The translations under genes were made by a program, and so were the position numbers. This document shows positions 4,209 to 41,115 of a DNA stretch of 41,115 nucleotides, piece by piece. The first letter of the stretch is position 1, and every line of letters starts with the position of its first letter. Origin of the DNA: Deltaproteobacteria bacterium (lineage in GTDB: Bacteria; Desulfobacterota; Syntrophia; Syntrophales; JACQWR01). The stretch covers positions 1-41,115 of the forward strand of contig JAPLJV010000048.1 of assembly GCA_026388415.1 (NCBI GenBank). The letters run 5' to 3'. Below the pieces are notes generated by a model. It had not been told where the DNA came from. It worked only from the letters and a program-made list of their open reading frames with translations, and did no database searches.

Positions 4209-5951
4209 TTATGGAGTCCAGGAAAAATATTCGGCAATCGGTCCCAAAGCAAGGGCGGGAATAAACGTGAGTGCCCCAACAAGAATAATTACGACCAAGA
4301 GAAAGAAAACGAATAGCGGCGTATGGGTGGGCAAGGTGCCGGCGCCAACGGGTACATGTCTCTTACGGGCCAGTGATCCTGCTGTTGCCAGCACAGGTAT
4401 GATAAGCCAGAATCGCCCGATGAGCATGACCATGCCAAGCGCTATATTATAAAAAAGTGTGTTGGCGTTCAATCCGGCAAAGGCGCTGCCGTTATTGTTT
4501 GCCGCAGAGGAAAAGGCGTAGAGCACCTCGGAGAATCCATGCGGGCCGGTGTTCGATATTCCGGACAAACCTACCTTTGTCACCACGGCAACGGCTGTAC
4601 CGACAAGAATAAGGACCGCTGGAATGAGAATAACGAGGGATGCCATCTTTATCTCGTAAGCTTCAATCTTCTTGCCGAGATATTCCGGTGTCCGTCCCAC
4701 CATAAGTCCCGCCACGAAAACGGTGATGATAACAAACATCAGCATCCCGTACAGGCCCGAGCCGACACCTCCGAAAATAATTTCACCAAGCTGTATTAGC
4801 CAGAGAGGAGCCAATCCACCCAGAGGCGTAAATGAATCGTGCATCCCATTGACAGATCCATTGGAGGCGGCCGTCGTGACGACCGCCCAGAGAGCGGAAT
4901 TCACGATGCCGAATCGCACCTCCTTGCCTTACATGTTGCCGCCGGATTGCAGTTCCCCCGCATTCTGATCTATGTTCATACCGTACAGCGACACATTACC
5001 CGTCTGCTCACTGGATAGACAAAGGCCGAGAAGCGGCAAGAGAATTAATATCATAGTAGCCAGCAGCGCCCACCCTTGCTTCCTGTCCCCCACCATCTTG
5101 CCAAAGGTAAAACAAAGGGCCGCCGGGATTAGCAAAATTGCCAGCATCTCCAGAAAATTGGACAGCGGTGTCGGATTTTCCAGCGGATGCGATGAGTTAG
5201 CGTTAAAAAAGCCGCCGCCGTTAGTCCCCAGCTGCTTGATAGCCACCTGACTGGCGGCGGGCCCCAAGGCGATCCTCTGTTCAGTTACAATATTACTCTT
5301 TTCATCCCTTGTCTGTTCCATGAGCGGCACCCTGACGGAACCGTCCAACGTTTGCACGACGCCCTGCGATACGAGGATGAGAGCCATGAATAATGACAAC
5401 GGCAGGAGGATATAGACCACTGATCTGGTCAAGTCCACCCAGATGTTTCCGATGGTCTGTGCAGAGGTTCTCTTAAGGCCACGGATGAGCGCGACAAGAA
5501 CGGCCATGCCCGTTCCCGCGGAAACAAAATTTTGGGCGGTAAGGCCCATCATCTGCGTGAAAAAACTCATCGTTGCTTCGCCGCCATAAGCCTGCCAATT
5601 CGTATTGGTCACAAAACTTATGGCGGTATTGAAGGCGAGATCGGGAGCAACGGCAGACATGCCCTGCGGATTGAGTGGTAACATTCCCTGGAATCGCTGC
5701 AATAAATAAACGGCCAGGCATCCTGCCAGATTGAAAATGAGCAGGCCCCCGGCATAGGTCTTCCAGGACATTTCCCGGTCCGGATCAATGCCACAGCATC
5801 GGTAGATCAACCTTTCGAGTGGACCGGCAAATTTGGTTAGAAAAAAAGGTTCGCCTGAGTAGATCTTGGCCATGTAGTGCCCAAGTGGTATTGCCGCTGC
5901 AAGAAGGATGATAAAATACAGCGCAACTTGAAGAAATCCCTGGGCGTTCAT
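4209..5951 (-). pseudogene. kdpA: Potassium-transporting ATPase subunit KdpA, interrupted by one in-frame stop
   Basis: KdpA is the channel-like potassium-binding subunit. Read through, the gene would give about 580 residues, full family length. Residues 1-340 lie at 5951-4929 and carry filter loops TNTNWQAYGG and TNGGGFFNANSSHP. The rest follows at 4928-4209 in the same frame, with [21 protein letters not shown] and [11 protein letters not shown]. Between them a TAA at 4931-4929 replaces the Glu of the conserved NMEGKE segment, a single G to T change from GAA. The reading frame is otherwise unbroken, so this is a nonsense codon rather than a frameshift. AAGGAG follows the stop but abuts a GTG at 4919 with no spacer; the next in-frame GTG is at 4904. 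Efficient restart is therefore doubtful but not excluded. It overlaps kdpF by ATGA. A sequencing error is possible. Confidence 0.9.
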
Positions 5952-15577: not shown

Positions 15578-18500
15578 ATGACGGAAGAAAGAATTAGAGC
15601 AGCCAGCACTCAGTCTTCAGCACCCAGTCCTCAGCACTCGGTCCTCAGCACTCAGCCCTCCTATCTCTTCGAGGTAAGCTGGGAAGTGTGCAACAAGATC
15701 GGCGGCATCTACACGGTGATCACCAGTAAGGCCCGTCAGGCAGGCAATGCCTACGGCGAAAACTACTACTTCCTGGGGCCTGATCTCAAGAACAATCTCG
15801 AATTTGAGGAAACAGAGGAGGACTGCTGGACCAAGATGAGGGCGGCCACCGCTATTCGGGACATACCCTGCCGTTTTGGCCGGTGGCGCATCCCCGGCAA
15901 TCCGAAAGTTATCCTGGTCGGTTTCGGCAAGAAATACGATAAGGAACAACTGCTCTTCCGTCTCTGGGAAAGATATGGCGTGGACTCTATCGCGGGCGGC
16001 TGGGATTATGTGGAGCCCGTCATGTTCAGTTATGCCTGCGGGGAAGTGATTGAAATTATATATAATTTATACGTCAAGCCCGAGGGCGCCACGGCCGTGG
16101 CTCATTTTCACGAATGGATGTGCGGCGCGGGACTGCTGGCGATCAAGCAGATGGCCCCGGAAGTAGGCACGGTATTTACCACCCATGCCACGATTCTCGG
16201 GAGAACCCTGGCCAGTTCCGGGATGGATATTTACACCAACATGGAGAACATCTCACCGCTCCGGGAAGCCAACGCCCATAATATTACCGCCAAGAACTCC
16301 ATGGAAGCGTCGGCCGCACGGGAAGCCGATTGTTTCACCACAGTCAGCAACATCACCGCTGCCGAGTCGAAAAACTTTTTAGGCCGGGCGCCGGATGTCA
16401 TCACCCCCAATGGACTGGACATGGAGCATGTCCCCGACCTGGTTGAAAATAGGGCGCCGGCGCTCAAGGCACGGGAAAGGCTGCTTTCGGCCGCCGGCCA
16501 CTTTTTAAGAAAAGAATTTCCTGATGATACGAAGATTATGTCCATTTCCGGACGCTATGAATTCCATAACAAGGGGATAGACCTGTTTCTTAATGCCCTG
16601 GGTCGTCTCGAAAAGAGCATGAAGGATAATGAAACCGTCCTGGCCTACCTGTTCGTTCTCGGCGGTCACAAGGACCTTATCCCCGCTCTCCAGTGCGAGC
16701 AGCCCTCGATATACTGCGATTCCACAAGGTATGAGACCGGCGCCCCCCTCCCCATTGCCACGCACCGGCTGGACTACGAGGCGTCAGATCCGATTCTGCA
16801 GACATGCAGTCACCTGGGTCTCAAAAACGGGCAGCAAAACAAGGTCTTTGTCATATTTATTCCGGCCTATCTGAATGGACACGATGGTCTTTTGAACATG
16901 ACCTATTATGAAGCGCTTTCGGGTAGCGATCTGGGTGTTTTCCCCTCCTACTATGAGCCCTGGGGCTATACTCCCTTAGAAAGCGCCGCCTATGCCGTAC
17001 CTACAATAACCACGGATCAGGCTGGTTTCGGCATCTGGGCGGAGCAGAAGGTTGGCGATAGCAGCGGCGTCATCCTGCTGCGGCGCAAAGGGAAGGATGA
17101 TAACACTATCGAAGACAAGCTCTACGGCATTTTGCATAATTTTCTGGGCTGGACGGAAGGGGAGCAGTTAGAGAGAAGAAAGATGGCCCGCCAGGCCGCC
17201 GAACAGGCTAACTGGCAAGACTTCTTTCTTGCTTACCAGCAGGCTTACGAGGGGGCATTGACCGTTGCCGCGGCGCGCTACACGAAGCTGATGACCAGCG
17301 CGGAAAGGGAGGAGAAGGTCCGCGTCTTTGCCGGCACGGTATCCACTCAGCCTCACTTTCGTAGTTTTTTGGCCGTGGCCAATCTACCGGAAAATATTGC
17401 CCGGCTGCGGGAGCTGGCCTACAACATCTGGCTGGCCTGGAACCCCCCGGCACTTAACCTGTTCGCCACTTTAGACCCCAAGTTATGGGAGGAAACAGGC
17501 AAAAATCCCATCCGGATATTAGAAACGACATCGCCGAAGCGGCTGCTGGAAGCCTCGAAAAGCGGAAGTTACATTGCTCTTTACGACCAGGTAATGGAAC
17601 ACTTCGACCAATATATGGATGAAATCAGAGACGCGGCCGGTCGCCCGGTCACGCTGGAAATGAAAAGCTCGGCGCCCGTCGCCTATTTTTCCACGGAGTA
17701 CGGCCTGCATGAGACCGTTCCCATTTATTCGGGCGGTTTAGGCACCCTCTCGGGCGATCACATGAAGACGGCCAGCGACCTGAATATACCTCTGGTGGGA
17801 GTGGGCCTGCTCTACAAGAATGGTTTTTTCCGGCAGGTCATAGACAGCAACGGGGTGCAACTCGCGGAATATCCGGAAAACGATTTCTCTACCATGGCCG
17901 TGCAGTTAGTGCAGGACGATCGAGGCAATGCCGCGCAGATTTCGCTCGAACTGCCCGGACGCATCCTCTTTGCCAACATCTGGGAAATCAAGGTCGGCCG
18001 GACTTCTCTTTATCTCTTGAACACCGATGTCCCGGCAAACACCCCCCAGGACAGGCGGATAACCGACCGCCTGTACAGCGGCGACCAGAGGACGCGGATC
18101 GAGCAGGAGATTCTGCTCGGCATGGGCGGGGTAAGGTTGCTGAAGAAACTCGGCATCAAACCGAGCGTATATCACATCAACGAGGGCCATTCGGCGTTCC
18201 TCATCCTGGAAAGGGTTGCCATCCTGATGGGTGAGGAGGGGCTGGGTTTTGAGGAAGCTTGCGAGGTTGTTCACGGCAGCACCATCTTTACCACCCACAC
18301 GCCTGTGGAGGCAGGCAACGAACGCTTCCCCAAGGAATTAATCGAGCATTATTTTGCTTCCTTTGTCAAGAAGTGTAATATTTCGTGGTCACAATTATGG
18401 GCATTGGGTTGCAAGGAGAGCGGCGATGACAAGAATTTTTTCCTGACGATCCTCGCGCTGAAAATGAGTTTTATGACTAACGCGGTCAGCCGGCTGCATG

Positions 18501-19921
18501 GACGTATCTCGCGGCATATGTGGCGTGACGTCTGGAAAGGTTTTTACGGCTCCGACGTGCCGATCGGTCACATCACCAACGGCGTCCATATGAAGTCCTA
18601 CGTTGCCCCGCGGATGAGAGAACTGCTGGATGTCTATCTGGGCGCGGATTGGTGGAGACACATCGCCGATAAGGAAATGTGGCAGCGCATTCAAGAGATT
18701 CCGGATGCAGTTTTATGGCGCACCCGCTATGAACTGAAACAGAAAAACTTTGATTTTCTGATCGACAATATTTCCCGGCAATGGTCAAGATACGGCCTTT
18801 CCAAAACATGGCGGGAAGATCTCCTGGGCAAGGTCAATCCCGCCGCCATGATCATTGGCTTTGCCAGAAGGTTCGCCCCCTATAAACGTGCTGATTTGAT
18901 TCTGTCGGATATGGATCGTCTGGCCAATATTTTGAACAATAAGGACCGCCCCGTCCATATCATCATGGCCGGCAAGGCCCATCCCAGCGACGAGATGGGA
19001 AAGAGCCTGATAAAGAAGGTCGTTGACGTCTGCAAGGAGGAGCGGTTCCGAGGCAAGATCTTCTTTATCGAAAACTATGATATTCGCGTCGCCCGACATC
19101 TGGTGCAGGGCGTTGATGTCTGGCTGAACACGCCGCGGCGGCCCTTTGAGGCGAGCGGCACCAGCGGCCAAAAAGTGGTGATCAACGGCGTGCTGAATCT
19201 CAGCGTTTCCGATGGCTGGTGGTGCGAAGGCTATGACGGCACCAATGGGTGGAATATAGGGCCAGTGGTGAGGGAACGCCCGGACAACCGGCAAAATGCC
19301 GATGAGGAAGACAGTCAATCCCTCTATTCGCTCCTGGAAAACACGATCGTCCCGCTCTTCTATGACCGCTCCTCCTCAGGCTTGCCCGAAAAGTGGGTAG
19401 CCATGATTAAGAGATCAATGCAGACCCTGACCCCGGAATACACTACGGCGCGGATGCTGACCGATTATTACGAGCAGATGTACGTGCCGACCATGAGAAG
19501 AGAACAGGTCGTGACGGCGGATTCCTTCAAGCTGGCCCGTGAACTTGCCGCGTGGAAGCTCAAGACCCCCATGCGCTTTTCATCCTTGAAAGTTCTCGAT
19601 TTCACGATTGACGGGGTACAGGGCGACACAATTGATGTTGGTCAGCCGCTGTTTGTGAAAGCCAGAATAGACCCGGGCAAGATGGATGAACAGGAAATCA
19701 TTGTGGAACTTATGATTGGCCGGGCCGAGGGCGGTGATTTTATTGAAAGCCCCGCCAGCGTGCCTCTGGAAATAGCCCAGCGGGGCCCGGACGGCATCCT
19801 GACCTTTACCGGGCAATACGAAGTCAGCCAGAACGGTATGTATTCTTACGGGATACGCGTGGCGCCGTATCACAAAAACCTGGCCTCCAAATACGAGCTC
19901 GGGCTAATGCTATGGGGATGA
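15578..19921 (+). CDS. Fused glycogen synthase (GT3-like) and alpha-glucan phosphorylase (GT35)
   Basis: This single 1447-residue frame carries two opposed activities. Residues about 29-590 are a GT3-type glycogen synthase. FEVSWEVCNKIGGIYTVITS is the nucleotide-sugar site, HFHEWMCGAG is near 177, and the catalytic E-x7-E is E460/E468 in YEPWGYTPLESAAY. Residues about 593-700 are a DUF3417 domain (LAYNIWLAWNP). Residues about 700-1330 are a GT35 phosphorylase with YFSTEYGLHETVPIYSGGLG, HINEGHSAFL and the PLP lysine K1199 in EASGTSGQKVV. Residues about 1335-1447 look like a beta domain. The start has AAGGAG about nine bases upstream. Residues 9-28 come from a heptanucleotide repeat. All catalytic motifs look intact, so both halves are probably active. 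It follows the GH57 gene by 15 bases. Confidence 0.93.
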   Translation: MTEERIRAASTQSSAPSPQHSVLSTQPSYLFEVSWEVCNKIGGIYTVITSKARQAGNAYGENYYFLGPDLKNNLEFEETEEDCWTKMRAATAIRDIPCRFGRWRIPGNPKVILVGFGKKYDKEQLLFRLWERYGVDSIAGGWDYVEPVMFSYACGEVIEIIYNLYVKPEGATAVAHFHEWMCGAGLLAIKQMAPEVGTVFTTHATILGRTLASSGMDIYTNMENISPLREANAHNITAKNSMEASAAREADCFTTVSNITAAESKNFLGRAPDVITPNGLDMEHVPDLVENRAPALKARERLLSAAGHFLRKEFPDDTKIMSISGRYEFHNKGIDLFLNALGRLEKSMKDNETVLAYLFVLGGHKDLIPALQCEQPSIYCDSTRYETGAPLPIATHRLDYEASDPILQTCSHLGLKNGQQNKVFVIFIPAYLNGHDGLLNMTYYEALSGSDLGVFPSYYEPWGYTPLESAAYAVPTITTDQAGFGIWAEQKVGDSSGVILLRRKGKDDNTIEDKLYGILHNFLGWTEGEQLERRKMARQAAEQANWQDFFLAYQQAYEGALTVAAARYTKLMTSAEREEKVRVFAGTVSTQPHFRSFLAVANLPENIARLRELAYNIWLAWNPPALNLFATLDPKLWEETGKNPIRILETTSPKRLLEASKSGSYIALYDQVMEHFDQYMDEIRDAAGRPVTLEMKSSAPVAYFSTEYGLHETVPIYSGGLGTLSGDHMKTASDLNIPLVGVGLLYKNGFFRQVIDSNGVQLAEYPENDFSTMAVQLVQDDRGNAAQISLELPGRILFANIWEIKVGRTSLYLLNTDVPANTPQDRRITDRLYSGDQRTRIEQEILLGMGGVRLLKKLGIKPSVYHINEGHSAFLILERVAILMGEEGLGFEEACEVVHGSTIFTTHTPVEAGNERFPKELIEHYFASFVKKCNISWSQLWALGCKESGDDKNFFLTILALKMSFMTNAVSRLHGRISRHMWRDVWKGFYGSDVPIGHITNGVHMKSYVAPRMRELLDVYLGADWWRHIADKEMWQRIQEIPDAVLWRTRYELKQKNFDFLIDNISRQWSRYGLSKTWREDLLGKVNPAAMIIGFARRFAPYKRADLILSDMDRLANILNNKDRPVHIIMAGKAHPSDEMGKSLIKKVVDVCKEERFRGKIFFIENYDIRVARHLVQGVDVWLNTPRRPFEASGTSGQKVVINGVLNLSVSDGWWCEGYDGTNGWNIGPVVRERPDNRQNADEEDSQSLYSLLENTIVPLFYDRSSSGLPEKWVAMIKRSMQTLTPEYTTARMLTDYYEQMYVPTMRREQVVTADSFKLARELAAWKLKTPMRFSSLKVLDFTIDGVQGDTIDVGQPLFVKARIDPGKMDEQEIIVELMIGRAEGGDFIESPASVPLEIAQRGPDGILTFTGQYEVSQNGMYSYGIRVAPYHKNLASKYELGLMLWG
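15604..15659 (+). repeat. Tandem heptanucleotide repeat inside the synthase-phosphorylase gene
   Basis: Eight near-perfect 7-base units alternate between CAGCACT and CAGTCCT forms (a 14-base period). They are translated as a Ser/Gln/Pro-rich stretch (SAPSPQHSVLSTQPS) between the start codon and the first conserved residue of the synthase. Similar CAGCACTCAGTCCT tracts are common intergenic repeats in some bacterial genomes. Here one lies in frame in a coding region. Confidence 0.85.
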
Positions 19922-37738: not shown

Positions 37739-37918
37739 TTATTTCTCTTCCCCGGCGACAATAGCCTCGACGGGACATTGCTCGGCACAGGTTCCGCAAT
37801 CCGTACAAAGCTTCGCATCAATGGTGTATTTATCATCTCCTTCGCTGATCGCCTCCACCGGGCACTCGTCCTGACAAGAACCGCAAGCGATGCACTCATC
37901 TGTAATCACGTAAGCCAT
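37739..37918 (-). CDS. 2[4Fe-4S] ferredoxin
   Basis: This 59-residue protein has two classical Cys motifs, CIACGSCQDECP (C9-C19) and CTDCGTCAEQCP (C38-C48), each C-x2-C-x2-C-x3-CP. It would carry two low-potential [4Fe-4S] clusters and transfer single electrons in the cytoplasm. A strong AAGGAG lies eight bases before the ATG. The gene is short enough to be missed by ORF cut-offs. It follows the NifU-like gene after a hairpin and is closed by a terminator. It could supply electrons to the Fe-S enzyme IspH encoded upstream; that is inference. Confidence 0.95.
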   Translation of the reverse strand: MAYVITDECIACGSCQDECPVEAISEGDDKYTIDAKLCTDCGTCAEQCPVEAIVAGEEK

Positions 37919-37949: not shown

Positions 37950-37977
37950 GTTGAGACGGACGGCAGCCCGTCTCAAC
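37950..37977 (-). repeat. Perfect hairpin between the NifU-like gene and ferredoxin gene
   Basis: GTTGAGACGG and CCGTCTCAAC form a perfect 10-base stem around an 8-base loop. It begins at the last base of the NifU-like stop codon. The sequence after it on the transcript is TTGGTTAAAATAATT, without a proper T tract, so it is a weak terminator or an RNA-stabilising hairpin. Confidence 0.65.
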
Positions 37978-38198
37978 TATACAGAAACAACCTCTTTTAC
38001 CTGGGGGACTTCCTGCTTCAAATGTTTTTCAATCCCCATCTTCAGGGTCATCTGCGACATCGGGCAACCCCCGCAGGCGCCCAGCAGCTTAACCTTTACT
38101 ACACCATCATCAGTGATATCAACCAGTTCCACATCCCCGCCATCCATCTGCAGGTTGGGCCTGATCTTATTAATCGCCTTTTGCACTGCTTCTTTCAT
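37977..38198 (-). CDS. NifU C-terminal-domain Fe-S scaffold protein
   Basis: The 73-residue protein consists of only the NifU-like (Nfu) domain: [20 protein letters not shown] followed by [18 protein letters not shown]. The C-x2-C pair binds a [4Fe-4S] cluster for transfer to target proteins. The start at 38198 is chosen for GGAGG seven bases upstream. It lies between a lipoprotein gene and a ferredoxin gene, downstream of the Fe-S enzyme IspH, so a role in maturing such proteins is reasonable but unproven. Confidence 0.93.
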
Positions 38199-38238
38199 CA
38201 CATCACCTCCGTCTTATCAAGACTTTCATTACTTCCCC

Positions 38239-38832
38239 TCAACGGGGCATAGCCCTCAACATTTGCCTTACCACGTCCCTGGCTACACTGCGCAGTTCCG
38301 GTTTCATAATCACATATTTCTCCGCCAGATCATGCCCGGCCTTCCAGATCACCACCCCCGTGGCGGCATTGATCAGCTTCATGCTCAGGCCGACCTTGGC
38401 CACATTCTTGTCGGCCTCCTGGGTATAATACCAGTAATCCACATTAATCAATAAAAAAGCATCAACACCGGCCAGCTCACCTATTTTTTTGCTCAGGTCG
38501 CTATCGGAAAAATTTACTGCCTTCAGCTTGGCCAGATAAGCAGTTGTTGTCTTACGCAGGGGTTCATTTTCCTGGAGCAGGCGCTGCATCATCTGATATG
38601 AGAAAAAGCTCTTAAATTGCCTCTCATCTGACAATTCACCGGCAATAATCCGGTCCAGCACTTCCCTTGATTCCTCAACACCCACCACATCCAGCGCCAG
38701 CAGAGCTAATGTCTGCGGGTGAAAGCCCTCAGCCTCCGGAGCAATCTGGGAAAAGCGGACGCCGCCACAGCCGCCCAGCATCAAAATCAGCAGCATGCCC
38801 AGAGAAAAAACCCGATATTTAGGTATCGCCAA
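38239..38832 (-). CDS. Putative outer-membrane lipoprotein
   Basis: This protein of about 197 residues has a lipoprotein signal (VFSLGMLLILMLGGC) with the lipidated Cys just after LGG. The remainder (PQTLALLALDVVGV, ELAGVDAFLLINVDYWYYTQ, VGLSMKLINAATGVVIWKAG) recalls GNA1162 / DUF799-type lipoproteins, whose function is not known. I take TTG 38832 as start because TGGAG stands at the right distance; a TTG at 38847 is in frame but badly placed. It begins 27 bases after the IspH-UbiA gene and is probably co-transcribed with it. Confidence 0.78.
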   Translation of the reverse strand: MAIPKYRVFSLGMLLILMLGGCGGVRFSQIAPEAEGFHPQTLALLALDVVGVEESREVLDRIIAGELSDERQFKSFFSYQMMQRLLQENEPLRKTTTAYLAKLKAVNFSDSDLSKKIGELAGVDAFLLINVDYWYYTQEADKNVAKVGLSMKLINAATGVVIWKAGHDLAEKYVIMKPELRSVARDVVRQMLRAMPR

Positions 38833-38859
38833 AATATCTCCAGTCAATCTTTGCCGGCG

Positions 38860-40593
38860 TCAGACACGATTAATGGCCAGCCACGACAAGGCGCTCACCC
38901 CCGCAAGGATGTAGTTGGTCTCTAAAAGCCCCCATATCTCCATGCTGGAAAGTGCCGCCCTTCTATCACAAAGTTTAAAACATATCAACACATAAAATAG
39001 ACAAATAATCAGCGCTATACTCACCGATGCCGACCATCCGGCGGGGTAGGCAGACGCGAGCAGAATAAATAATAAAACCCAGACAACCTTCAATATCCGC
39101 TGCGATGTTTTACTGCCCACCAGGACCGGAATCGTCTCCCGCCCCAGCAAGCGGTCATTTTGCATTTCGATGATATCCGATAAAATGGAACGGATGAAAA
39201 CCATGGCAAAAGTAAAAACAAAGGCCACCGCCAAGCCGGGGCGGAAAGTAAACCCCGCGCCCACGACTGGCAGCACTACGGTCACCATCGCCCAGGCCAG
39301 GGCCATTGACACATTTTTTGAGCCCGGCAGTTCCTTCAAGCTTCGAAAACGCCATCGGGACGGCAAGAAACGGGCATTATAAAGGACACCGGACAGGGAA
39401 ATGACAAAAAGCAAAAGGAATTGTCCCGCCCCCTGGGCCAGGGCTAAGAGCAGGGCGGCTATTAATGTTGCAACAGCCAGAAAAATATAAAGGGCTTCGT
39501 GTTGCCGGTAATTTTCTTCCCGGAAGGAACCGCTGATATTTGTTTTATGGTCCGTAAATCTGTTCAAAACATGCATCGCATAAACGTAAAGGGAGGCTAT
39601 CAAAAAATTGCTGAACCGCACCTCCAGCTCCTGCATAATGGCGCCGGCCAGATAAAGGCACCCGGCGCCCAACGCCGCATAGATGTCCGTACGCACTAAA
39701 AAAAGCCATATATTAAACAGACCTGGCGATTTTTCCCCCCGCTGGCCCTGAAGATTGGTAATGTCATTTACTACCCGGTCAATGATCCAGTTCGGCGTCG
39801 AAGCCCCTGCTGAAACCCCGATACTGCCATAGAGACCCAGGGGGTGGTCTTTCAGGCCTTCCGCCGTTTCAATGTAAAAGGTCGGTTTCCCCTGCTGCTC
39901 CGCCATCTCGGCCAGCCGTTTGGTATTGGCGCTGTTGACGCCCCCGACAATAACCATGGCATCCATCCGGGCCGCCAGATTTTTAACCTCCTTTTGTCTC
40001 TTTTCCGTGGAGTCGCAGATGGTGTCAAAGACCAGCGCCCGGGGAGATTTCCTTTTGATGATTTGCGCTATTTCCTGATAAAGCTCCTGATCTTGCGTTG
40101 TCTGAGCGACAATGCCTAAGTGCTCTGCAGGGGGCAAGCGCTGCGCTTGCTCCTTAGTGCCTATTACCAGGCCCCGGCCAGCGCTGTAACCGAGCAAGGC
40201 CGTTACCTCCGGATGACCCTCGTCGCCCACAATCACAATCGTATAACCGAGGGCTACCTGCTTCTTGATAATGGCCTGGACGCGCGCCACCTTCGGGCAG
40301 GTGGCGTCCACGATCTTGACGCCTTTAGCCATAATCTGGCGCCGTTCCTCAGGCGATACGCCATGGGTGCGGATGACCAGCGTTGTTTCGCTGCCGGCGG
40401 GAATTTCCTCGAGGCTGGCGATGGGCAGGATGCCCCGTTTTTCAAGCAGCGCGACCGTCTGAGGATTATGGATCAGGGGACCGTAGGTATAGATTGGCCC
40501 CGGGCCGGCCTGCCGCGCGGTGTCCAGCACCAGGTCAACCGCCCGCCGGACACCCATGCAAAAACCAGCAGTTTCCGCCAGTTTCACGCCCAT
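38860..40593 (-). CDS. ispH: Fusion of IspH (HMBPP reductase) and a UbiA-family prenyltransferase
   Basis: Residues 1-283 are a complete IspH, which makes IPP and DMAPP in the last MEP-pathway step. The three cluster cysteines are C12 (AETAGFCMGV), C99 (VDATCPKV) and C193 (DTICDSTEK), and GVSAGASTPNWIIDRV closes the domain. Residues about 295-577 are a UbiA-type membrane protein with about eight helices. Its first motif is N344-RFT-D348-HKT-N352, where the last Asp of N-x3-D-x3-D is Asn. The second is D473-II-E476-MQN-D480-RLLGRETIPV, where the usual second Asp is Glu. Two changed acids could mean altered or lost prenyl transfer. No stop or frameshift separates the halves. The prenyl acceptor is unknown. 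Confidence 0.92.
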   Translation of the reverse strand: MGVKLAETAGFCMGVRRAVDLVLDTARQAGPGPIYTYGPLIHNPQTVALLEKRGILPIASLEEIPAGSETTLVIRTHGVSPEERRQIMAKGVKIVDATCPKVARVQAIIKKQVALGYTIVIVGDEGHPEVTALLGYSAGRGLVIGTKEQAQRLPPAEHLGIVAQTTQDQELYQEIAQIIKRKSPRALVFDTICDSTEKRQKEVKNLAARMDAMVIVGGVNSANTKRLAEMAEQQGKPTFYIETAEGLKDHPLGLYGSIGVSAGASTPNWIIDRVVNDITNLQGQRGEKSPGLFNIWLFLVRTDIYAALGAGCLYLAGAIMQELEVRFSNFLIASLYVYAMHVLNRFTDHKTNISGSFREENYRQHEALYIFLAVATLIAALLLALAQGAGQFLLLFVISLSGVLYNARFLPSRWRFRSLKELPGSKNVSMALAWAMVTVVLPVVGAGFTFRPGLAVAFVFTFAMVFIRSILSDIIEMQNDRLLGRETIPVLVGSKTSQRILKVVWVLLFILLASAYPAGWSASVSIALIICLFYVLICFKLCDRRAALSSMEIWGLLETNYILAGVSALSWLAINRV

Positions 40594-40614: not shown

Positions 40615-41115
40615 TTATGCACTATAATATCTATATCCATTCCTGCCTGTCTGCTTAACGCTATACATCGCAATATCTGCATTCTTTACAAGGGTGTCTA
40701 TATCCTCGCCATGGTCAGGGTAGACGGCTATGCCGATACTCATCGTGACAGACATGGTATGATTATTAATTGTAATATTGGTCTGGAAATCTTCCATTAT
40801 CTTTTCTGTAATGGTATTAACATCTTCTGTCTGCTTAAGGTCGGCAAAAATCAACATAAACTCATCACCGCCCATGCGTGCGACTGTGTCACCTTTTCGT
40901 ATCTGCAAGGTGAGTTTTTCTGCAACAGCCTGTAATAACAGATCCCCGCTACTATGGCCAAATGTGTCGTTCACATCTTTGAACTTGTCAAGGTCAAGCA
41001 TCATCACGGCAACCTTCTCGTTAAAGCGTTCAGCGTGGGCCATTGCCATAACAAGACGGTCATTAAAGAGTGAACGGTTGGGCAGGCCAGTCAGGGCATC
41101 ATGGAACGCCATGTG
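40615..41115 (-). CDS. Diguanylate cyclase GGDEF domain (C-terminal part, runs off right edge)
   Basis: The frame is open from the right edge to a stop at 40615, giving 166 residues. They begin HMAFHDALTGLPNRSLFNDR and contain LDLDKFKDVNDTFGHSSGD and RMGGDEFMLIF. The GGDEF signature is intact, so the domain should make c-di-GMP from two GTP. An RxxD inhibitory site (RKGD) lies five residues before GGDEF, so product inhibition is likely. The sensory N-terminus lies outside the window. The stop is 21 bases upstream of the IspH-UbiA start, so the two may be co-transcribed. Confidence 0.93.
   Translation of the reverse strand, partial: HMAFHDALTGLPNRSLFNDRLVMAMAHAERFNEKVAVMMLDLDKFKDVNDTFGHSSGDLLLQAVAEKLTLQIRKGDTVARMGGDEFMLIFADLKQTEDVNTITEKIMEDFQTNITINNHTMSVTMSIGIAVYPDHGEDIDTLVKNADIAMYSVKQTGRNGYRYYSA

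Follow-up and report, generated by a model that had tools for sequence, protein, structure and literature searches.

IspH, the enzyme of the last MEP step, is normally a soluble protein. Forty-seven IspH-UbiA 'Rosetta stone' fusions, primarily from Desulfobacterales, were described by Rao et al. (2015, Chem Sci, PMC4746011). In these proteins a UbiA domain of unknown function, listed as PT_UbiA_5 and stated to carry two DXXXD repeats, is located C-terminally. Membrane localisation together with a local supply of IPP and DMAPP to the UbiA-like domain was proposed; the full-length fusion could not be expressed (PMC4746011). No assay of a full-length IspH-UbiA fusion was found in the literature searched. 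IspH is also extended at its C terminus in the IspH-RPS1 fusions of anaerobes, whose partner, unlike a UbiA domain, consists of ribosomal protein S1 repeats and is soluble.

In UbiA proteins the N terminus lies in the cytoplasm, and the two acidic loops are found on that same side of the membrane (PMC4106721). The direct Mg ligands of A. fulgidus AfUbiA are N68, D72, D198 and D202, a set that does not include the third Asp of motif 1. Substitutions N68A and D72A abolish GPP binding, D198A and D202A have milder effects, and equivalents of N68 and D72 are required in E. coli MenA (PMC4106721). In human UBIAD1, which is enzymatically active, motif 1 (N102TYYDFSKG) is without the third acid (PMC9314443). 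UBIAD1 is, in addition, a UbiA-fold GGPP sensor bound to HMG-CoA reductase, the mevalonate pathway's key enzyme (8djk; PMC9314443). There, too, a UbiA fold is tied physically to an isoprenoid-precursor enzyme, but the two are separate proteins of the eukaryotic mevalonate pathway and regulation proceeds via degradation.

The locus considered here lies in a stretch of 41,115 nucleotides (hereafter the window) from a member of Syntrophales. According to the original prediction, IspH is fused in it to a UbiA-like membrane protein that could anchor the enzyme or pass prenyl diphosphates to an acceptor. Since anchoring and local supply had already been proposed in 2015 (PMC4746011), this main idea is a rediscovery. 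The protein shares with the fusions of Rao et al. the domain order, the C-terminal UbiA domain, the anaerobic delta-proteobacterial setting and the anchoring and supply proposal. It differs from them in source: the published fusions come from sulfate reducers and this one from Syntrophales, which are largely syntrophs. Four results reported below are new as far as the searched literature shows: the survey of the motifs across the family, the one natural loss of the UbiA half, the finding that this half is almost always fused, and the operon context.

The fusion gene and its product

The gene and its parts were delimited as follows.

38860..40593, minus strand: ispH-ubiA fusion gene, 577 aa in one uninterrupted frame, two Pfam domains
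39754..40593, minus strand: IspH half, residues 1-280, assigned by 10 conserved residues and fold
39721..39753, minus strand: linker, residues 281-291, low model confidence
38863..39723, minus strand: UbiA-fold half, residues ~291-577, predicted amphipathic helix and nine transmembrane helices, assigned by Pfam UbiA and model
39538..39564, minus strand: first acidic motif, residues 344-352, NRFTDHKTN (canonical form NDxxDxxxD)
39154..39177, minus strand: second acidic motif, residues 473-480, DIIEMQND (DxxExxxD)

The predicted fusion was borne out, both Pfam domains being found in the single frame. Residues 3-278 match LYTB (PF02401; 3.9e-88, 295.7 bits against a cut-off of 24.5) and residues 313-551 match UbiA (PF01040; 1.1e-11, 44.9 bits against a curated cut-off of 34.2). 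TIGR00216 (ispH) is matched with 279.5 bits (cut-off 187.85), and the match to PRK00087 (IspH-RPS1) covers residues 1-285 only, i.e. the IspH part. Structure prediction, which had been suggested as a check, was run with AlphaFold2 (mean pLDDT 84.2, pTM 0.76). The model consists of an IspH domain, a linker (pLDDT of 59 in block 281-290) and a UbiA fold made of nine long helices in the C-terminal half.

The IspH half is matched by A. aeolicus IspH (3dnf) at 6e-66, and its modelled fold superimposes on E. coli IspH with a Z score of 32.6 and an rmsd of 1.7 over 280 residues. In a family survey of 143 fusions (83 from Syntrophales and 60 others) the cluster cysteines C12, C99 and C193 and the active-site residues H42, H127, E129, T166, S221, N223 and S265 are invariant in all 143 sequences. 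A LYTB search revealed no other IspH in the source genome or in nearly all IspH-bearing Syntrophales genomes. In one genome (G006) a second, divergent IspH (L199, G006:C32:101268-102092; 39% identical) is present besides the fusion and is either a true paralog or contamination. With intact catalytic residues and as the only IspH found, the fused IspH is in all likelihood the working enzyme.

The UbiA half has no sequence match in the PDB at E values up to 1, and its placement accordingly rests on Pfam, profile alignment and fold. No NCBIfam equivalog reaches its cut-off for this half. The closest folds are those of UbiA prenyltransferases: A. pernix ApUbiA (4od4) with a Z score of 18.1 and an rmsd of 3.1 A over 249 residues, DMAPP-bound AfUbiA with 16.8, and UBIAD1 from its complex with HMG-CoA reductase with 15.4. 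Soluble prenyl synthases, which have a similar helical arrangement, rank below these UbiA fold matches (Z ~13-15). The nine-helix fold is thus shared with the UbiA prenyltransferases (E. coli UbiA and MenA, ApUbiA 4od4/4od5, AfUbiA 4tq3/4tq4) at Z scores of 16-18, the difference being that here it is joined to IspH.

With helix boundaries taken from the model, the loops carry 14 Lys and Arg residues on the predicted cytoplasmic side and 2 on the opposite side. The positive-inside loops and the UbiA fold suggest that the N terminus of the UbiA domain and both acidic-motif loops face the cytoplasm. Because the N terminus of a UbiA fold is cytoplasmic, the N-terminal IspH would share a face with the pocket entrance, and channelling between the two halves is plausible. 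Anchoring of IspH at the membrane beside a site that handles prenyl diphosphates, as suggested originally and in PMC4746011, is well supported by domain anatomy, fold and predicted topology.

Distribution and inheritance of the fusion

The fusion would be spurious if relatives encoded the two halves separately and the junction had arisen during assembly or annotation. In the 60 related genomes searched, a match was obtained in 55, for the most part at full length, with 47-61% identity and in single frames of 554-689 aa. IspH was detected in 55 Syntrophales genomes, and 51 of these encode it fused in one frame; the remaining four comprise three broken or split sequences (G002, G041 and G045) and one clean case of IspH alone (G012). 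A scan of one genome per species (84,980 species) yielded 80 loci with titles such as Syntrophaceae, Syntrophus, Smithella and similar. Of 395 genomes sampled from the phylum, 148 contain the UbiA half, nearly always in frames of ~565-690 aa, that is, fused. No standalone relative of the UbiA half was detected among these 395 genomes, the few short frames being contig ends or damaged assemblies. The same one-frame junction recurs in independent genomes throughout Syntrophales and in many further families of this phylum, which rules out an assembly artefact, and IspH-UbiA fusions have been published independently (PMC4746011). We regard the chance of an artefactual junction as negligible.

Divergence in one half tracks divergence in the other (Mantel rho 0.86, compared to a maximum of 0.13 in 300 permutations). 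Placing the UbiA half among UbiA families had been proposed as a further check. In a tree that covered E. coli UbiA and 28 paralogs from the order, one branch (SH-aLRT 99) separates all fused UbiA halves from the other sequences, although long branches meet there. Most simply, the fusion arose once, long ago, and was vertically inherited.

In the clean case of IspH alone, the UbiA half has been lost naturally. This genome (G012, 99% complete) encodes IspH in a 303-residue frame at the same locus, flanked by the dxs/tlyA region and by the lipoprotein-nifU-tmk genes, and the search of the 60 related genomes revealed no fusion-type UbiA elsewhere in it. Since IspH is retained there without its partner, the UbiA half is dispensable in G012.

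Acidic motifs and conservation of the UbiA half

The first motif reads N344-RFT-D348-HKT-N352, exactly as the original prediction had it, and does not match the strict NDxxDxxxD. The second reads D473-II-E476-MQN-D480, i.e. ExxxD with an extra Asp three residues before. In a profile alignment with seven loosely chosen paralogs and E. coli UbiA, from which register is claimed for the two acidic motifs only, N344 and D348 align to the first motif of E. coli UbiA, and E476 and D480 align to its DxxxD (D191 and D195). The Glu noted originally is thus present, but it replaces the first and not the second Asp of DxxxD.

Like the UbiA prenyltransferases, the fusion has N344, D348, D480, Y405 and an acidic second motif. 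It differs from them in being without the third acid of motif 1, in having Glu for the first Asp of the second motif, and in having SFRE in place of the RP-type loop after motif 1. Equivalents of AfUbiA N68, D72 and D202 are kept and D198 is represented by Glu. Since all four Mg-ligand equivalents are retained, one of them as an Asp-to-Glu change, the protein's own motifs are weak evidence for a different chemistry, contrary to what was first suggested. UBIAD1 also departs from strict NDxxDxxxD, which makes this motif a common trait of the superfamily and not a strict criterion for it.

At the family level, the suggestion that the chemistry may differ fares better. The position of D348 is Asp in only 17 of the 83 Syntrophales fusions and otherwise mostly Asn, Ser or Gly, the Asp being missing from 66; it is Asp in 46 of the 60 fusions from outside the order and lost in 14. 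The column of N344 is Asn in 133/143. The strict form NxxxDxxxD is found in 3/143 fusions, compared to a canonical or slightly looser form in 28 of 31 same-order UbiA paralogs. The motif changes recur in homologous fusions, with motif 1 departing from the canonical register in 140/143 and Glu at 476 being a recurrent conservative change. This erosion qualifies the 2015 statement of two DXXXD motifs (PMC4746011), the first repeat being absent here.

Other parts of the predicted pocket are retained. Position 473 is acidic in all 143 fusions, position 476 is Asp or Glu in 127 and position 480 is Asp in 140; Y405 is kept in 142, R358 in 127 and K426 in 134. Conserved family-specific signatures mark the loop that follows motif 1, SFRE-like in 80 of the 83 Syntrophales sequences and NDP in 45 of the 60 others. 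No equivalents of AfUbiA R22 and K146 could be assigned from the alignment, column 301 being variable outside Syntrophales. Because the second motif, Y405, R358, K426 and the loop signatures are conserved despite the erosion of motif 1, the UbiA half looks, from its sequence, more like a pocket that is altered yet under constraint than like an anchor in decay.

The UbiA half could instead be a degenerate pseudoenzyme whose main role is to hold IspH at the membrane. The eroded motif 1, with Asp at 348 changing state at least 12 times on the tree of IspH halves, is in line with such decay, as are the overall conservation of the UbiA half, lower than that of the IspH half (0.51 vs 0.64), and the loss of the UbiA half in G012. 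However, the near-invariant second motif, Y405, R358 and K426 would not be needed by a mere anchor, and conservation in the second-motif loop (0.69) exceeds that of the IspH half. Asp 348 is, moreover, kept in most fusions from outside Syntrophales and in the protein described here. We consider a pseudoenzyme rather unlikely.

A membrane-embedded sensor of prenyl diphosphate that tunes the activity or stability of IspH is also conceivable by analogy to UBIAD1. UBIAD1 provides the precedent (PMC9314443), is among the fold matches and likewise is without the third acid of motif 1, and the covalent link of the UbiA half to IspH is obligate. The resemblance is one of analogy, however, and conserved Y405 and the second motif fit catalysis equally well, so that a sensor of this kind seems quite unlikely. 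For a more specific version, in which the Syntrophales UbiA half would have lost transferase chemistry and, as a prenyl-diphosphate sensor, would feed back on the attached IspH, we see a slim chance.

Gene context and possible function

The neighbours of the fusion gene in the window are listed below.

40615..41115, minus strand: 3' end of a PAS-GGDEF gene, upstream of the fusion, GGDEF Pfam match
38239..38847, minus strand: putative lipoprotein with lipobox LGGC, directly downstream of the fusion, no Pfam match
37977..38201, minus strand: NifU C-terminal-like Fe-S scaffold, GTG start, NifU_proper 9.5e-18
37739..37918, minus strand: 2[4Fe-4S] ferredoxin of the FdxA family, NF058577 1.4e-27, above cut-off

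In Syntrophales the cluster order is ispA-dxs-tlyA-ispH/ubiA-lipoprotein-nifU-ferredoxin. Among 49 Syntrophales loci, the lipoprotein gene is found downstream of the fusion and on the same strand in 49, the NifU-like gene in 47 and the ferredoxin gene in 46, followed further downstream by tmk (45), holB (43) and ricT (43). Upstream are tlyA in 48, dxs in 37 and ispA in at least 27, the ispA count being limited by the length of flanking DNA. The same 47 residues of the PAS-GGDEF protein end both the window and contig C12 (L236 1-3243), so that the window contig and C12 are probably adjacent in the genome. C12 carries an xseA-like gene, ispA-dxs-tlyA and then the 5' part of the PAS-GGDEF gene, and the most likely order in the source genome, as judged from sequence overlap, is ispA-dxs-tlyA-PAS/GGDEF-ispH/ubiA.

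The NifU-like and ferredoxin genes had been taken as support for the Fe-S half. Both are indeed present downstream throughout most of the order and fit the needs of IspH, but lipoprotein, NifU-like and ferredoxin genes occur at none of 46 loci from outside Syntrophales. The Fe-S genes are therefore not a general partner of the fusion, and the link is order-specific. Other Syntrophales neighbours are likewise not shared by these 46 loci, bar single matches.

Two side observations were made elsewhere in the window. The kdpA gene (4209-5951, minus strand) is interrupted by an in-frame TAG (GGNM*GKEVRFG) and is otherwise intact, its two parts matching KdpA 1-306 and 317-548 within an otherwise normal kdp cluster; the TAG is either a nonsense mutation or a sequence error. 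A 1447-aa frame (15578-19921, plus strand) that adjoins GDE and GH57 genes combines glycogen synthase (PF05693) with a glycogen phosphorylase-type domain (DUF3417 and PF00343), and is a possible synthase-phosphorylase fusion.

A CruF-like membrane protein gene on the opposite strand and an HpnG-like phosphorylase gene lie upstream of the fusion in four of the 46 non-Syntrophales loci, which belong to two families (L193, L164, L144 and L145), hinting at carotenoid or hopanoid metabolism. These genes bear on whether the UbiA half, its first motif being different, catalyses another reaction of the superfamily, such as phosphoribosyl transfer, cyclisation or C5 transfer directly from DMAPP. Replacement of motif 1 and the following loop by the family-specific SFRE or NDP signatures, and the lack of an NCBIfam equivalog, would agree with this. 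Yet the core ligands are kept in this protein and the gene neighbours outside Syntrophales are inconsistent, and we judge another reaction to be improbable.

A role in futalosine menaquinone synthesis (MenA/MqnP) was considered and is not supported by co-occurrence with MqnA and MqnD: genes for both are absent from 50 of the 60 Syntrophales genomes, including the source genome, and nearly all of these genomes carry the fusion. Both genes are present in G001, the sole sampled genome of the same family as the source genome. A separate MenA-like UbiA protein is encoded in the source genome, and the fusion is the only UbiA found in G017, G021 and G026. A quinone enzyme is not the obvious reading of the UbiA half.

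From the fusion, its predicted fold, its conservation and its gene context, we propose with moderate confidence that the protein is a membrane-anchored, probably bifunctional IspH-prenyltransferase of the published IspH-UbiA family. The N-terminal IspH would be the cell's working HMBPP reductase and would make IPP and DMAPP at the cytoplasmic face of the membrane, sitting over the mouth of the prenyl-diphosphate pocket and raising the local precursor supply for its partner. The UbiA half would most likely bind a prenyl diphosphate with Mg and transfer the prenyl group to an acceptor. Intact IspH residues, the UbiA fold, the conserved second motif with Y405, R358 and K426, co-divergence of the halves and the isoprenoid gene cluster count for two active halves. 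Against them count the rarity of a canonical motif 1, the frequent loss of the D72-equivalent Asp, the UbiA-less G012, the absence of a linked acceptor pathway, MqnA and MqnD being missing from 50 of the 60 relatives, and the failure of Rao et al. to express the full-length protein (PMC4746011).

The near-sole IspH of a whole bacterial order is thus tied to a membrane domain of a prenyl-handling type. Ready material for natural comparisons exists in G012 and in lineages that differ in whether they keep the motif-1 Asp. If active, the UbiA half would be a prenyltransferase in syntrophs and other Desulfobacterota. An inactive UbiA half may instead be a membrane anchor or sensor built into the enzyme of the last MEP step; as a sensor, it would make the fusion the bacterial equivalent, in the MEP pathway, of UBIAD1 paired with HMG-CoA reductase.
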